Under the pieces are notes generated by a model. That model saw only the letters and a list, made by a program, of their open reading frames with translations. It was not told the DNA's origin and made no database searches. From contig NZ_QVAI01000001.1 of the NCBI RefSeq assembly GCF_003427025.1, positions 558,001 through 622,000 of the forward strand: a stretch of DNA of 64,000 bases. The letters are read 5' to 3'. Each line of letters starts with the position of its first letter. Position 1 is the stretch's first letter. The stretch comes from Jiangella endophytica. Its GTDB lineage: Bacteria > Actinomycetota > Actinomycetes > Jiangellales > Jiangellaceae. The translations under genes were made by a program, and so were the position numbers. This document shows positions 33,018 to 39,839 of this stretch, piece after piece.

Positions 33018-33905
33018 TCACTCCTCGGGCGACCGCCCGGAGAGCTGCTCGACCTGCAGCAGCAGGGCGCCGTGGTCGAGGTCGCCGTGGCCCTGGGCGC
33101 GCAGCGCGCCCATGAGCGTCGCCGCGAGGGAGCCGGCCGGGATGGCGACGCCGGCCTCGCGGGCGGCGGCGGTGACGATGCCGAGGTCCTTGTGGTGCAG
33201 GTCGACCCGGAAGCCGGGCCGGAAGTTGCGCCCCAGCATGGCCGCCGCCTTGCGGTCGAGGACGGCGCTGCCGGCCAGGCCCCCGGCCAGCACCTCCACC
33301 GCCCGGGACCGGTCGACGCCGTGGGCGTCGAGGAAGACCAGCGCCTCGGCGACCAGCTGCAGGGTGCCCGCGACGATCAGCTGGTTGGCCGCCTTGACGG
33401 TCTGGCCGGCGCCGGGCGGCCCGACGTGCACGATGGTGCGGCCGACGGCGTCGAGCACCGGCCGTGCGGCCTCGAACGTCGACGCCTCGCCACCCACCAT
33501 GATCGACAGCGTCGCGTCGATGGCGCCCTGCTCACCGCCGCTGACCGGGGCGTCCAGCACGCCGACCCCGCGGGCGGCGCCCGCAGCCGCCAGCGACCGG
33601 GCGACGTCGGGGCGGATGGTGCTCATGTCGACGAGGACCGTGCCGGGCGCCAGGCCGTCCAGCACGCCGCCGTCGCCCAGCAGTACCGCCTCGACGTCGG
33701 GGGAGTCGGGCAGCATCGTGACGACGACGTCGGCGCCCTCGGCGGCGTCCGCGGCCGACGCCGCGCCCCGCCCGCCGGCGTCGACGAGTCGCTGGACCTT
33801 CTCCGGGCTGCGGTTGAACCCGGTGACCTCGAACCCGGCCTTGACCAGGTTCGCCGCCATCGGCCCGCCCATGACGCCCAGTCCGATGAAGCCGATGGCC
33901 GTCAT
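33018..33905 (-). CDS. garR: 2-hydroxy-3-oxopropionate (tartronate semialdehyde) reductase-like
   Basis: A 295-residue beta-hydroxyacid dehydrogenase. FIGLGVMGGPMAANL is the NAD(P)-binding loop with family signature; DAPVSGGEQGAIDATLSIMVGG is the substrate-binding segment; KAANQL contains the catalytic Lys; HKDLGIVTAAARE is near the C terminus. Size and motifs fit GarR/GlxR, which reduces tartronate semialdehyde to D-glycerate, although 3-hydroxyisobutyrate dehydrogenases are similar. Its start overlaps the hydroxypyruvate isomerase stop (ATGA), the classical hyi-glxR pairing of glyoxylate/glycerate metabolism, which favours this call. Confidence 0.87.
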   Translation of the reverse strand: MTAIGFIGLGVMGGPMAANLVKAGFEVTGFNRSPEKVQRLVDAGGRGAASAADAAEGADVVVTMLPDSPDVEAVLLGDGGVLDGLAPGTVLVDMSTIRPDVARSLAAAGAARGVGVLDAPVSGGEQGAIDATLSIMVGGEASTFEAARPVLDAVGRTIVHVGPPGAGQTVKAANQLIVAGTLQLVAEALVFLDAHGVDRSRAVEVLAGGLAGSAVLDRKAAAMLGRNFRPGFRVDLHHKDLGIVTAAAREAGVAIPAGSLAATLMGALRAQGHGDLDHGALLLQVEQLSGRSPEE

Positions 33906-34696
33906 CGCCAGCTCCCTTCCGCGCGCCACGCGAACGGGTCCGCGTCGTCGCTCACGTGTTCCAGTGCCATCCATCCGTCGTACCCACCGGCGAGCAGGTC
34001 GTCGACCCAGGCGCGCAGCGGCAGCGTGCCGGTGCCGGGCGCGCCCCGGCCGGGCGCGTCGGCCAGCTGGACGTGTGCGACGCGGTCGCGGAACCGCTCG
34101 ATCGCGGCAGCGACGTCGTCGCCGTTGATGGACAGGTGATAGACGTCGAGCAGCAGTCCGACGTTGGTGGCGCCGACCCGGTCGGCGACGGCGACCACCT
34201 GCGCCGCCGTGCGCAAGGGGTAGGCGTCGATGCCGCTGACCGGTTCGATCAGCACCGTGCCGCCGATGCCGGCCAGCCCGGCGGCCGCCGCGGCGAGGTT
34301 GTGGTCGGCGACGGCGTCCTGCTCGGCGGGGTCGCGGCCGGGCAGCCGATTGCCGTACAGCGCGTTGAAGTTGCGGCAGCCGAGCTCGGCGCCGACGTAG
34401 GCGGCCACCCGAACGCTGGCCAGCAGCTCGTCCTCGCGGCCGGGCCACGACACCACGCCGCGGTCGCCCCCGGGCATGTCGCCGGCGAACAGGTTCAGCC
34501 CGGCCAGTCGCAGCCCGGACGCCCGGATCGCGTCGACGAACGCCTCGATCTCGGCGTCGCCGGGCGTCGCGGTGGGGAACGGCCACCAGAACTCGGCCGC
34601 CTCGAAGCCCGCCGCGCGGACGGCGTCGAGTCGCTCGCGCAGCGGCAGCCGGGTCAGGAGGATCGAGCAGTTGACGGCGAATCGCGGCTCAGGCAT
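33902..34696 (-). CDS. hyi: Hydroxypyruvate isomerase-like TIM-barrel protein
   Basis: A 264-residue xylose-isomerase-like barrel protein. RFAVNCSILLTRLPLRERLDAVRAAGFEAAEFWWP opens the barrel; LIEPVSGID has the first metal-binding Glu, LLLDVYHLSINGD the Asp/His pair, and VQLADAPGRGAPGTG and MALEH the later ligands. It would interconvert hydroxypyruvate and tartronate semialdehyde, upstream of the adjacent reductase. ATG 34696 is chosen; the upstream frame includes the operator. ATTGGTCTAACCACC at 34728-34742 lies 31 bases before the start and is probably bound by the FCD-GntR regulator encoded next. Confidence 0.85.
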   Translation of the reverse strand: MPEPRFAVNCSILLTRLPLRERLDAVRAAGFEAAEFWWPFPTATPGDAEIEAFVDAIRASGLRLAGLNLFAGDMPGGDRGVVSWPGREDELLASVRVAAYVGAELGCRNFNALYGNRLPGRDPAEQDAVADHNLAAAAAGLAGIGGTVLIEPVSGIDAYPLRTAAQVVAVADRVGATNVGLLLDVYHLSINGDDVAAAIERFRDRVAHVQLADAPGRGAPGTGTLPLRAWVDDLLAGGYDGWMALEHVSDDADPFAWRAEGSWR

Positions 34697-34727
34697 CACA
34701 TTCCCGTCGTAGTCTGTCCCGTCGTGG

Positions 34728-34742
34728 ATTGGTCTAACCACC
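34728..34742. promoter_or_regulatory. FCD-GntR operator upstream of hyi-garR
   Basis: ATTGGTCTAACCACC contains TGGT-N3-ACCA, the core of FadR/FCD-family GntR sites. Its reverse-complement twin, with one mismatch in 15, is at 35713-35727 on the other side of the regulator gene. Confidence 0.7.
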
Positions 34743-34780
34743 CATCCGATATCGACCATAGGAGCGCCCTGACCGCACTG

Positions 34781-35518
34781 TCAACCGTCGTGCCCCAGCT
34801 CGGCCAGCAGGCCGGTCTCGATGGCGCTCATGTGCATGACCATGAGCTGGCCGGCCCGCCGGGGGTCGTGCTGGCGGATCGCCTCGAGCACCAGCTGGTG
34901 GTGCTCGAGGTAGGCCTCCGAGGCATGGGACCGCGACCGGGACCGGTGCTTGAGGTCGCTCCACGTCTGCTCGTGCATGAGGTCGTTCAGCGTGCGCTGC
35001 AGCGCCACCAGGACGCCGTTGTGCGTGGCCACCGCGACGGCCAGGTGGAAGGCGGCGTCGGCTTCGCTGGGGTCGCCGCCGGCGCGGGTGACGTCGGCCT
35101 GCTCGGTGACGGCGTCCTCGATGGCCTGCAGGTCACTGGGGTGGTGCGACCGTGCCGCGTGCTCGGCGCAGACCGGCTCGATGGCGGCGCGGGCGACGAT
35201 GAGGTCGAGCGGGCTGTGCTCGCCGATCATCGCCGCCTGAGCGCGCAGGATGGTGGTGTCGGAGCCGCTGTCCATGGTGACGTAGGTGCCGCTGCCGACC
35301 CGCACGTCCAGCACGCCGGCGTGCTCGAGCACCCGGATGGCCTCGCGCAGCGAGCCGCGGCTCACCTGCAACTGGTTGGCCAGGACGCGTTCGGCCGGCA
35401 GCGCGCTGCCCGGGGGCAGCCGGCCGTCGCGGATGCTGGCGAGGATCTGGTCGACGACCGAGGAGTACACCTTCGACCGTTCGACCGCGTGGAACGCGGG
35501 GCCGTCTGGTTGAGTCAC
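34781..35518 (-). CDS. GntR-family regulator with FCD domain
   Basis: A 245-residue FadR-subfamily GntR protein. The winged helix runs VVDQILASIRDGRLPPGSALPAERVLANQLQVSRGSLREAIRVLEHAGVL (described in part here; residues about 20-70), including the GntR signature PAERVLA. The FCD domain at about 95-230 has the metal-binding residues D and H in the order ADAAFHLAVAVATHN, DLMHE and LEHHQLVLEAIRQHD. Such repressors respond to organic or sugar acids. Two TGGT-N3-ACCA operators flank the gene, one before hyi-garR and one before the truncated enolase-superfamily gene. GTG 35518 with AGAGGA upstream is chosen over longer frames. Confidence 0.88.
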   Translation of the reverse strand: MTQPDGPAFHAVERSKVYSSVVDQILASIRDGRLPPGSALPAERVLANQLQVSRGSLREAIRVLEHAGVLDVRVGSGTYVTMDSGSDTTILRAQAAMIGEHSPLDLIVARAAIEPVCAEHAARSHHPSDLQAIEDAVTEQADVTRAGGDPSEADAAFHLAVAVATHNGVLVALQRTLNDLMHEQTWSDLKHRSRSRSHASEAYLEHHQLVLEAIRQHDPRRAGQLMVMHMSAIETGLLAELGHDG

Positions 35519-35842
35519 CTGATGTCGATCCTCTCGTCTCCGGTGAGGCCACTGTAGCCGTCGACCCATGCCGATGTGGAACCGCGAACGCACAGGTCAG
35601 AACCGGTGCGGCGAGCCCGGTCCCGCCGCCGTGGCCGTCGCGCCGACCGCGTCGTCGCAGCTCAGGGGCCCGTTGACAGTGGTCTGGGTCACACCTATGC
35701 TCTGACTGGCTGGGTGGTTGGACCAATTTGCGACGAAGCAGGTCATCACCACGAGAGCTTGCGACGACGCACCGGCGGGCGCCTCCGTGCGCCCTGGTCC
35801 ACCCTCCTGGGGCCGCCGGTCCGACGTCGAAAGGACACCCCC
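35519..35842. other. Intergenic region between GntR regulator and Tat-enolase gene
   Basis: A 324-base divergent intergenic region. It holds the GntR promoter side (TACAGT on the minus strand near 35549-35554), the operator at 35713-35727, and AAAGGAC just before the ATG at 35843. No other gene is supported. Confidence 0.4.
35713..35727. promoter_or_regulatory. FCD-GntR operator upstream of the Tat-enolase gene
   Basis: GGTGGTTGGACCAAT contains TGGT-N3-ACCA. Its reverse complement ATTGGTCCAACCACC differs from the hyi operator at 34728-34742 by one base. Confidence 0.7.
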
Positions 35843-36586
35843 ATGGCTGCGCACGACGGAGCTGGGTCCCGGCACCACCTTCCCGTGGCCGCGGCCGCGG
35901 CCGATACCACCGCGATGACCCACCGGCGCACGGGCGCCACCGGGTCCAGCGCCCTCTCACGGCGCGGTTTCCTGCAGGCGGCGGGCGCGGCCGAGGGAGC
36001 GGCCGGGCGCATGGACGTCATGACCGACCCCGGCAAGTCGCTGCGCACGCTGGCCGACGCCCTCGCGCTCGGCCGCGCCTGCGACGACGTCGGCGCCTAC
36101 TGGTGGGAGGACCCCATGCGCGACGACGCCGCGTTCGGCCACCGGATCCTGCGGCAGCGGGTGCGCACGCCGCTGCTCATGACGGAGTTCGTCCGCGGCC
36201 TGGAGCAGCGGGTCGCCGTCGCGCTGGACGGCGGCACCGACTTCCTGCGCTCGGACCCGGAGCTCGACATGGGCATCACCGGCGTCATGAAGACGGCGCA
36301 CGCGGCCGAGGCGCTGGGCATCGACCTCGAGGTGCACGCGTCCGGGCCGGCGCAACGGCACTGCATGGCGGCGATCCGCAACACCAACTACTACGAGCTC
36401 GGCCTGCTCGACCCGGAGACCGGCAACCCGCTGCACCCGCCCGTCTACACCGACGACTACGCCGAGGACGTGACGGCGCTCGGCCCGGACGGGTGCGTCG
36501 GCGTGCCGTCCGGTCCCGGTCTCGGCGTCCACTACGACTGGGACTGGATGGAGGCGCACCGCACCGATCGTGCGGTCTTCACCTGA
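35843..36586 (+). pseudogene. Truncated enolase-superfamily (mandelate racemase-like) gene joined to a Tat-type signal
   Basis: A 247-residue frame with two unrelated parts. Residues about 38-55 read SRRGFLQAAGAA, a twin-arginine signal core (Arg40-Arg41). From residue 57 it is the C-terminal two-thirds of an enolase-superfamily barrel: MDVMTDPGKSLRTLADAL, YWWEDPM (metal-ligand Glu at about 89), VALDGGTDFLRSD, and VHASGPAQRHCMAAIRNTNYYEL. The N-terminal capping domain and the strand with the KxK catalytic lysines are missing. Enolase-superfamily sugar-acid dehydratases are cytoplasmic, so a Tat signal is out of place. An internal deletion that fused two genes is the simplest explanation. It keeps a GntR operator upstream (35713) and AAAGGAC before ATG, so it may still be expressed. 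Confidence 0.6.
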
Positions 36587-36658: not shown

Positions 36659-38044
36659 GTGAAACGCACCAGCCGGCTGGGCGCAGCGCTCGCCGTCCTC
36701 GTCGCCTCCGCGACCCTGTCCGGTCCGACCGCCGCGGCCGGCGCCGAGCTGCCGGACCACGCCGTCGAGCCGCTGCCACGCATCGCCGCCGGCCCGGACC
36801 GGACGCTGGTGAACGCCGAGACCGGCGAGCAGTTCCGTCCGCGCGGCTTCAACTACGTGCGCCTGACCCCGATGCCGTCGAAGCCGGCTGCTCCGTACCA
36901 CTCGACGTTCGAGCCCGGGCTGTACGACGCCGCCCGCGCCGAGGCCGCGTTGCGCGACAGTTGGCTGCGTGGCTACGACACCGTCCGGGTGTTCATCGAC
37001 CCCGGCAACGGGCAGGACAACGTGATCGGCCGGCCGCACGGGCTGGGCCGCGGCAACGCCGACCTGAGCCCGGCCGACGCCACCTACCTCGACAACGTCG
37101 CCGACTTCGTCCGCCTCGCGGCGGCCTACGGCATCTACGTGCTGCCGTCGCTCGACGTGTTCCCGCAGAACGGCTACTACCGCGACATCATCGTGAACAG
37201 CCCGCACCCGGTGAACATCGAAGGCCGGAACCGGTCGTTCATGTACGAGGGGTACGTCCGGGCCAAGGAGGAGTACCTCCGCGTCTTCACCCAGGAGATG
37301 AAGGAACGCCTCGGCCCCTTCATGAGCACGTTCCTCGCGCTGCAGCTGGACAACGAGGCCTATCTCACCTTCGCCGAGGCGCCGTTCCACCGGTTCGGCG
37401 GGACGGTGACGGTGGCCGGCCGCAGCTACGACATGGCCGTGCCGGCGCAGCGGCAGGCCGCCGCCGACAACGCCTTCATCGCCTACGCCGACCGCGGCGT
37501 GGCCGCCGTCAAGGCCGTCGACCCGGAGCTCATGGTCACCATGGGTGCGTTCACCAACCTGGCGGTCGGCAAGTCGTTCGACGGGCTGTCCGGCCGGTGC
37601 GGCGCGGCGGCGTGCGCGGATCCCCGGTACCCGGTGCGCGTGTCGGCCGTCACCCGCGAGTCCGACCTCGACTTCTTCGACATCCACACCTACCTCTCCA
37701 CTGGCCGCACGTTGGCGGCGTCGCTGGGTTCGATGGAGTGGTCCCAGGTCGTCGGGCCGGTGATCAACGGCGAGTTCGGCACCGAGCGGCGCTGGTTCGC
37801 CAGCATCGAACAGGCCCGCGGCGCGCTGGTGACGCACCAGGTCGACAGCTGCGACTTCGGGATCTCCGGCTGGCTGTACTGGACCTGGGACACCACCGAG
37901 GACGCGACGCAGCGGCTGTTCTTCAGCGGGGTGGAGTCCGGCGGCGTGCTCGCCACCGCGCTCTCGCCGAAGTACCGGCCGGACCCGTGCGCGGGCCTCT
38001 CGGGCCGCGTGCCCGGGCCGCTCGTGCCGCCACGGGTCGGCTGA
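36659..38044 (+). CDS. Secreted GH5-like (clan GH-A) glycoside hydrolase
   Basis: A 461-residue exported protein. Residues 1-29 are a Sec signal peptide. The barrel starts at FRPRGFNYVRL; candidate acid-base Glu233 lies in QLDNEAYL and nucleophile Glu372 in VINGEFGTER, the NE/GE pair of clan GH-A. Aromatic-rich GISGWLYWTWDTTEDATQRLF ends the barrel. Pairs of Cys residues suggest disulphides. It is close to the anchored paralogue at 44454-46160 but lacks its linker and LPXTG tail, so it is released. The substrate is unknown (beta-glucan, mannan or glycan). GTG start with GGGGAG 8 nt upstream. Confidence 0.8.
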   Translation: MKRTSRLGAALAVLVASATLSGPTAAAGAELPDHAVEPLPRIAAGPDRTLVNAETGEQFRPRGFNYVRLTPMPSKPAAPYHSTFEPGLYDAARAEAALRDSWLRGYDTVRVFIDPGNGQDNVIGRPHGLGRGNADLSPADATYLDNVADFVRLAAAYGIYVLPSLDVFPQNGYYRDIIVNSPHPVNIEGRNRSFMYEGYVRAKEEYLRVFTQEMKERLGPFMSTFLALQLDNEAYLTFAEAPFHRFGGTVTVAGRSYDMAVPAQRQAAADNAFIAYADRGVAAVKAVDPELMVTMGAFTNLAVGKSFDGLSGRCGAAACADPRYPVRVSAVTRESDLDFFDIHTYLSTGRTLAASLGSMEWSQVVGPVINGEFGTERRWFASIEQARGALVTHQVDSCDFGISGWLYWTWDTTEDATQRLFFSGVESGGVLATALSPKYRPDPCAGLSGRVPGPLVPPRVG

Positions 38045-38064: not shown

Positions 38065-38514
38065 TCAGGCGGTCGCGTAGAGGCCGCTCAACGCACCGAC
38101 CAGCGGCTCGAGCTCCGGTGACTCGGCGGCCTCGTCGAGCGCGGCCCGCAGCGCCTGGTCGTGCGTCGACCGGGCATCGGCCAGCAGCGCGCAGCCGGCC
38201 TCGGTGACCTCGGTGTAGATGCCGCGCCGGTCGGTGTCGCACAGGTAGCGGCCGAGATAGCCCTGGTTCTCCAGCCGGGTCACCAGCCGTGTCGTAGCGC
38301 TCTGGCTCAGCACGACGGCTTCGGCCAGCTGCTGCATGCGCATGTGCCAGCCGTCCTGGCGGCTGAGCACGTCGAGCACGGTGTACTCGCTCACGCTGAG
38401 GCCGTGTGCCGCCTGCAACGCGCGCTCGATGCGCGTCTCGAGCCGTGCGTGCAGCGCCGCCAGCACCCGCCAGCCCTGCGCCCGCGCATCCACGGCGTCG
38501 TCGACGAGGACCAT
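38065..38514 (-). CDS. MarR-family regulator
   Basis: A 149-residue winged-helix regulator. LSVSEYTVLDVLSRQDGWHMRMQQLAEAVVLSQSATTRLVTRLENQGYLGRYLC (described in parts: recognition helix near SQSATTRLVTRL, wing near CDTDRRGIYTEVT) is typical MarR. It is divergent from an MFS exporter and likely represses it, with derepression by a small aromatic or toxic compound. The ATG has GGAGG 8 nt upstream. A 11-bp AT-rich palindrome (38594-38604) lies between the two genes. Confidence 0.88.
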   Translation of the reverse strand: MVLVDDAVDARAQGWRVLAALHARLETRIERALQAAHGLSVSEYTVLDVLSRQDGWHMRMQQLAEAVVLSQSATTRLVTRLENQGYLGRYLCDTDRRGIYTEVTEAGCALLADARSTHDQALRAALDEAAESPELEPLVGALSGLYATA

Positions 38515-38593
38515 CGCGGCACCTCCTTCGGATCCGTTGCTCGGAGTTTACCTGAGCGAGGGGGTAGCCTGCTTTCGCAGATATGAAGCGTGT

Positions 38594-38604
38594 GCAATTA
38601 TTGC
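38594..38604. promoter_or_regulatory. Candidate MarR operator before MFS gene
   Basis: GCAAT-T-ATTGC is a perfect palindrome within GTGCAATTATTGCTCAC. It is an island of AT in GC-rich DNA, 38 bases before the exporter ATG. MarR sites often look like this. Confidence 0.5.
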
Positions 38605-38642
38605 TCACGCCTGATACTTCGCACAGACTCCCAGGGATCACC

Positions 38643-39839
38643 ATGCCTCTCGCTCTGCTCGCACTGGCCATCGGCGCCTTCGGCATCGGCACGACGGAGT
38701 TCGTCATCGCCGGTCTGCTCCCGGAGGTGGCCGCCGACTTCGACGTCTCCATCCCGACGGCCGGCTGGCTGATCTCGGGCTACGCCCTCGGTGTGGCGGC
38801 CGGTGCGCTGCCGATGACGGTGCTCGGCGCGCGCATGCGCCGCAAGCACCTCCTGCTGCTGCTCATGGTCGTCTTCATCGCCGGGAACGCGATCTCCGCC
38901 CTGGCCCCGTCGTACGCGGTCATGATGACCGGCCGGATCGTCGCGGCGTTCTGCCATGGCGCGTTCTTCGGCATCGGCTCGGTGGTCGCGGCCGACCTCG
39001 TCGCGCCGAACAAGCGGGCCAGCGCGATCGCGTTCATGTTCACCGGGCTCACGCTGGCCAACGTGCTGGGCGTGCCGATGGGCACGTTCCTCGGGCAGGA
39101 GTTCGGCTGGCGGTCGACGTTCTGGGCCGTCGTGGCGCTCGGGGTGATCGGGTTCGCCGGCATCGCTGCCCTGGTCCCGGACCTGCCGCGGGTCGCGTCG
39201 GGCGGTGTGCTGCACGAACTGCGCGTGTTGCGCAGCGGGCGGGTCTGGCTGGCCGTCGCGATGACCGTGCTCGGCTTCGGCGGCGTGTTCGCCTCGTTCA
39301 CCTACGTCGCGCCGATGATGACCGAAGAGGCCGGGTTCTCCGAGGGGGCGGTGAGCTGGCTGCTCGTGCTGTTCGGCGCCGGCCTGGTGCTCGGCAACCT
39401 GCTCGGCGGCCGGTTCGCCGACCGGCGGCTGATGCTCAGCCTCTATGTGCTGCTCGGCGGGCTCACGGTCGTGCTGGCGGTGTTCACGGTGACGGCGACC
39501 GCGCCGGTGCCGGCAGCCGTGACGCTGTTCCTGCTCGGCGCCTTCGGGTTCGCGACCGTCCCGCCGCTGCAGATGCGCGTCCTCGACAGCGCGGCGGCGG
39601 CGCCCACGATCGCGTCGGCGGTCAACATCGGCGCGTTCAACGCCGGCAACGCCCTGGCGGCCTGGCTCGGCGGGGTGGTGATCTCCGCGGGGTACGGCTA
39701 TACCGCGCCGAACTGGGTGGGCGCGCTGATGGCGTTCGGTGCGCTGCTGCTCGCCGTCGTCGCCGGCCGGCTGGACCGGCTCCGGGCCGGCGAGCGGCCG
39801 GACGTCGCCACCGCGGTGCGGGTGCCGACGCCCTGCTGA
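38643..39839 (+). CDS. MFS transporter (DHA1, AraJ/arabinose-efflux-like)
   Basis: A 398-residue major-facilitator protein with 12 predicted membrane helices. LALAIGAFGIGTTEFVIAGLLPEVAADF is the signature first helix of the AraJ/PbuE/chloramphenicol-efflux group; RMRRKHLLLLLMV is the loop 2-3 basic motif; the second half restarts at GRVWLAVAMTVLGFGG. It would act as a proton-driven drug or metabolite exporter. Start ATG 38643 begins exactly with MPLALLAL; the frame is open 20 codons further but that stretch is not family-like. The divergent MarR gene is its probable regulator. Confidence 0.9.
   Translation: MPLALLALAIGAFGIGTTEFVIAGLLPEVAADFDVSIPTAGWLISGYALGVAAGALPMTVLGARMRRKHLLLLLMVVFIAGNAISALAPSYAVMMTGRIVAAFCHGAFFGIGSVVAADLVAPNKRASAIAFMFTGLTLANVLGVPMGTFLGQEFGWRSTFWAVVALGVIGFAGIAALVPDLPRVASGGVLHELRVLRSGRVWLAVAMTVLGFGGVFASFTYVAPMMTEEAGFSEGAVSWLLVLFGAGLVLGNLLGGRFADRRLMLSLYVLLGGLTVVLAVFTVTATAPVPAAVTLFLLGAFGFATVPPLQMRVLDSAAAAPTIASAVNIGAFNAGNALAAWLGGVVISAGYGYTAPNWVGALMAFGALLLAVVAGRLDRLRAGERPDVATAVRVPTPC

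Follow-up and report, generated by a model that had tools for sequence, protein, structure and literature searches.

The fused reading frame and its surroundings

The window, a 64,000-nucleotide stretch of DNA from the soil actinomycete Jiangella endophytica, contains on its forward strand a 247-codon open reading frame at positions 35843-36586. As read from the sequence, the frame begins with MAAHDGAGSRHHLPVAAAAADTTAMTHRRTGATGSSALSRRGFLQAAGA, continues with AEGAAGRMDVMTDPGK and runs on to a normal C-terminus without stop or frameshift. The features at the locus are as follows:

33018-33833, minus strand: 3-hydroxyisobutyrate dehydrogenase-like reductase (Pfam); kept in G002, G011 and G007
33902-34759, minus strand: sugar isomerase-like TIM barrel (AP_endonuc_2, Pfam); kept in all four congeners compared
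34728-34739, minus strand: second operator-like site, before the isomerase gene, with one mismatch to GGTTGGACCAAT
34781-35593, minus strand: GntR/FCD regulator, divergent from the operon (Pfam)
35673-35701, plus strand: sigma-70-like promoter TTGACA-N17-TATGCT of the former operon (pattern search: one found, mean of 0.0 in shuffles)
35716-35727, plus strand: operator-like palindrome GGTTGGACCAAT, identical in five of five aligned genomes
35830-35835, plus strand: Shine-Dalgarno-like AAAGGA before the ATG (sequence; conserved in L030 and L031)
35843-35989, plus strand: binding-protein part, the first 49 codons of an ABC-transporter binding protein (alignment to the intact parents)
35990, plus strand: deletion junction (alignment to both parents)
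35990-36586, plus strand: enzyme part, the last 198 codons and stop of an enolase-superfamily gene (Pfam and alignment)
36659-38044, plus strand: GH5-like secreted protein, downstream of the former operon (weak Pfam match, below the cut-off)

Residues 1-49 of the fusion, ALSRRGFLQAAGA, align to the N-terminus of the binding protein in two congeners, G009 and G007 (ALTRRTFLRAAGA and ALSRRTFLQASAA, respectively). This part holds only the n-region, the twin-arginine motif and the start of the h-region. The n-region ahead of the twin arginines is longer in the window than in either relative, a difference for which, judging from the alignments, the deletion gives no account. Residues 50-247 correspond to residues 190-387 of the enolase-superfamily protein at the G009 locus (L031); over residues 57-247 the identity to that protein is 96% in both G009 and G007. 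The alignments indicate that the frame is no chance one.

Pfam found a partial MR_MLE_C match in the fusion (profile positions 35-218 of 219, E 9.9e-26) and no match to the MR_MLE_N capping domain, whereas the intact L031 homologue carries both; the loss of the capping domain described in the initial annotation was thereby borne out. Everything before L031 residue 190 is gone, including strands 131-137 and 168-171, so that two of the eight barrel strands are missing. The second-strand base motif was lost as the initial annotation had stated, but it is KxH (YKIHG, K170/H172 of the L031 protein) and not KxK. Residues D62, E89 and E115 of the fusion, which we take to be the metal ligands on strands 3-5, are invariant in seven of seven aligned sequences, and their equivalents in the intact protein align with acidic residues of 1RVK.

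The promoter, operator and Shine-Dalgarno sequence were confirmed to be in place. G009 shares both promoter hexamers with the window, G007 departs from it at the -10 hexamer, and G002 and G011 carry changes in both. A search of the window with the operator pattern returned four matches at two or fewer mismatches, against a mean of 1.43 in shuffles, and sites matching 34728-34739 are present in place in L030 and L031. Two near-identical palindromes (34728-34739 and 35716-35727) flank the GntR gene, an ortholog of which was found in five of the 12 genus genomes, the window's own included. Since the palindrome at 35716-35727 is unchanged in all five genomes even where the operon is missing, this pattern suggests that the GntR regulator may still serve the isomerase side or itself.

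Downstream, the GH5-like gene is present in G002, G007 and G009 and absent at the locus in G011. Its product is 461 amino acids long in the window, 474 in G009 and 547 in G007, and its pairwise dN/dS (0.43-0.57) lies above that of the other genes compared, indicating either fast evolution or relaxed constraint. Between this gene and an ABC exporter, positions 38065-39839 of the window hold a MarR-like regulator and a major-facilitator-like transporter, both named from their translations. The loci of G007, G009, G002 and G011 leave no room for this pair at that place; it is either an insertion in the window lineage or was lost in the others.

Intact and empty loci in relatives, and the junction

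In G009 and G007 the operon runs, in order, through a Tat-lipoprotein binding protein, a 448-amino acid GHL10-like protein, two BPD_transp_1 permeases and the enzyme, with the GH5-like secreted protein gene after the enzyme and the GntR/FCD regulator divergent (family assignments were searched on the G009 proteins). The intact L031 binding protein passes the Pfam cut-offs of both SBP_bac_1 and SBP_bac_8. By BLAST, both flanks in the window are colinear with these two loci, and the operon interior is absent from the window. The enzyme was found at 94% identity or more in three of the 12 genus genomes, counting the window's own (window, G009 and G007), and the same three carry it in the family set of 22 genomes. 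The two congeners, of 11, with a close match both have it at full length (387 residues in G009, 386 in G007). Comparison with close relatives, which the initial annotation had proposed, thus recovered the intact two-gene arrangement at the same place, in agreement with its reading of two genes joined by a deletion; the same fusion was found in neither congener with a close match.

A wider scan returned five loci, in J. rhizosphaerae NEAU-YY265, Microlunatus parietis, M. endophyticus, Actinopolymorpha pittospori and Kribbella rubisoli. All five encode the enzyme at full length. It adjoins the 448-amino acid gene in each of the four non-Jiangella loci, one of which (Kribbella) has the full operon. 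The 448-amino acid protein (L031:3770-5116) is 66-76% identical in these four loci, which belong to three actinobacterial genera other than Jiangella, and its gene lies there directly before that of the enzyme; it had no NCBIfam match and a sub-threshold Pfam match to GHL10. From its gene order and conservation, it is a conserved, unnamed putative partner of the enolase-superfamily enzyme.

The left and right parental matches meet at 35990, where a single base fits both parents. The initial annotation was right that a fusion exists, but had placed the join at MDVMTDPGK; it lies slightly upstream, the residues AEGAAGR already belonging to the enzyme. The DNA between the corresponding junction points measures 5288 bp in G009 and 5062 bp in G007, and the longest shared words near the breakpoints are 12 and 9 bases. 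As aligned, the junction is nearly blunt and in frame; a random join keeps the frame with a one-in-three chance. Two matches to Ku genes over the cut-off in the window's genome make end joining possible, and it may have been used for the deletion.

A search for the deleted DNA elsewhere in the window's assembly, in which 40 of 1479 first-look candidates were scored, gave no near copy; the longest matches were paralogs of 67-73% identity over the permease part. The 448-amino acid protein query had no match in this assembly, although it matched in G007 and G009, and the best match to the binding-protein query was a distant paralog at 35%. About 16 of the 57 deleted-DNA matches in the window's genome fell in a GC-rich stretch ahead of the first permease gene of G009 (L031:5200-5275). 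These are mostly 45-60 bases long, 81-94% identical and scattered over many contigs, and the stretch resembles, in sequence, a dispersed extragenic repeat; the pattern tried for it gave none in the window.

Two further congeners lack the operon. In G002, a genome in a single contig, the alignment with the window breaks off at the operator and picks up again just past the enzyme stop codon; the operon is absent and the GH5-like gene present. G011 lacks the entire stretch from the operator to the ABC exporter. Among the five congeners compared, the locus is therefore intact in two, a fused remnant in one and empty in two. Two flank trees separated the window, G002 and G009 from G007 and G011 (support 100), and grouped the window with G009 weakly (support 48 and 88). 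The operon DNA was likely lost independently in the window and G002, a conclusion held at that strength because of the weak placement of the window with G009. Parsimony, which is not proof, favors loss from G002 and G011 over their never having had the operon. Because two congeners keep the regulator and operator without the operon, the window appears to represent one state of a locus that has eroded in several lineages.

These comparisons bear on whether the strain in fact has an intact operon, from which an assembly error dropped 5.3 kb and made a false join. The assembly is a draft of 89 contigs, as such an error would allow, but the join, with its one shared base, lies deep inside a 985-kb contig, and the window contains no N. 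A one-base overlap makes repeat collapse unlikely. In addition, the assembly is rated 99.99% complete and the missing DNA did not turn up in it, and neighboring species, including single-contig G002, lack the operon at the same locus. An assembly error was accordingly considered very improbable.

Selection, folding and export of the remnant

The dN/dS of the remnant was 0.083 to G009 and 0.110 to G007, compared with 0.097 between G009 and G007. Counted by codon, the window branch carries 11 synonymous and three nonsynonymous changes, with three ambiguous codons left out. Listed base by base, there are 13 synonymous and four nonsynonymous bases, two of the four in one codon (TAC to TGG). All nonsynonymous changes fall within codons 235-240, near the C-terminus. 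A Poisson estimate built on the codon counts limited any neutral period to at most about 15-20% of the window branch (P 0.026-0.072 at 20%). No relaxation of selection after the fusion was seen, a pattern compatible with a recent event. So little change (omega about 0.1) points either to a recent deletion or to constraint on the remnant; both fit the low dN/dS, and we favor a recent deletion because of the missing protein parts and the empty loci in relatives.

AlphaFold2 gave the fusion a mean pLDDT of 42.2 and a pTM of 0.32, against 66.6 and 0.67 for the intact protein modeled with the same relatives; the alignments were shallow (7 and 6 rows), so this comparison is weak evidence of misfolding and not proof.

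Continuing constraint would be expected if the remnant were a working gene, encoding a cytoplasmic half-barrel that is non-enzymatic or completes a multimer. The open frame, the intact promoter, operator and ribosome site, the low dN/dS and the confinement of nonsynonymous changes to six codons would all suit such a gene, as would the retention of every aligned position that we presume to be a metal ligand, His or Asp. Against it stand the loss of the capping domain, the first two barrel strands and the K170/H172 strand, the absence of such a fusion from the two of 11 congeners with a close match, the low model confidence, and the fact that the low dN/dS is just as well accounted for by a recent deletion; we regard a working gene as very unlikely. 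A more specific version, for which we hold out scant hope, is a new cytoplasmic protein already under selection, in which a twin-arginine n-region and a six-strand enolase part-barrel with intact metal-ligand residues have inherited a regulated promoter, for example as a sugar-acid-binding or regulatory protein under GntR.

The initial annotation had also proposed that a short barrel might be exported. The twin-arginine motif SRRGFLQ, which would carry the remnant out of the cell, is kept in the fusion, but the uncharged signal core is reduced to FLQAAGAA and is followed by Glu. The best 15-residue hydropathy after the arginine pair is 0.44, compared with 1.62 and 1.50 in the intact proteins. 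The lipobox, which reads LLAAC or LLAGC in the intact proteins, is deleted together with the cleavage region. Tat export normally requires folded cargo, and with two of eight strands missing and a mean pLDDT of 42 against 67, an exported barrel is scarcely credible.

A probably decaying catabolic operon

At the level of sequence, comparison with the intact loci establishes the missing segment, the junction and the retention of the promoter, operator and ribosome site. The reading that most probably accounts for them is that a single deletion fused two operon genes into a young, probably inactive scar. The ancestor would have had a GntR-controlled operon with which it took up and degraded a sugar or sugar acid. 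In the window lineage, one deletion of about 5.3 kb, with almost no homology at the join, would have begun at codon 50 of the binding-protein gene and ended at codon 189 of the enolase-superfamily gene, the frame being kept by luck. The fused frame would be transcribed once the regulator lets go. With the Tat core and lipobox gone, its product would stay in the cytoplasm; it would probably not close into a barrel and would have no enzyme activity. The empty locus in two congeners suggests that the fusion is a pseudogene that arose recently and is in the course of being lost. Counting against decay, the promoter is intact in the window, whereas those of G002 and G011 have changed. The deletion scar in a catabolic operon appears real, and it is probably recent.

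The locus would be a snapshot of operon loss, in which the regulator, operator and flanking isomerase gene persist. It offers a small example of the stepwise erosion of regulated catabolic operons, and cautions that a chimera may be in frame, have good signals around it and still be a mere scar.

Among solved structures, the best relatives are the isomerase/lactonizing enzymes 1RVK, 4HCD and 4MMW (E 1.1e-19 for the remnant, 1.4e-39 for the intact protein). These are full length, at 382-405 residues, whereas the remnant keeps 198 and aligns from 1RVK residue 214 on. The nearest NCBIfam model is the L-talarate/galactarate dehydratase NF047820, on which the remnant scored 33.7 bits and the intact protein 79.2 bits; both scores are far below the cut-off of 500 bits, so neither is a member. 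The first 49 residues derive from the carbohydrate ABC-transporter binding proteins (SBP_bac_1/SBP_bac_8) but, unlike these proteins, the window keeps none of the binding domain.

Chimeric pseudogenes that arise by deletion, and the decay of operons, are of a generally known kind in bacteria, and the present case looks like ordinary operon decay or gene loss. As in such pseudogenes, a large, low-homology deletion within an operon has joined two partial frames, and other lineages are without the whole operon. Unlike the usual examples, the fusion in the window is in frame and nearly unmutated.
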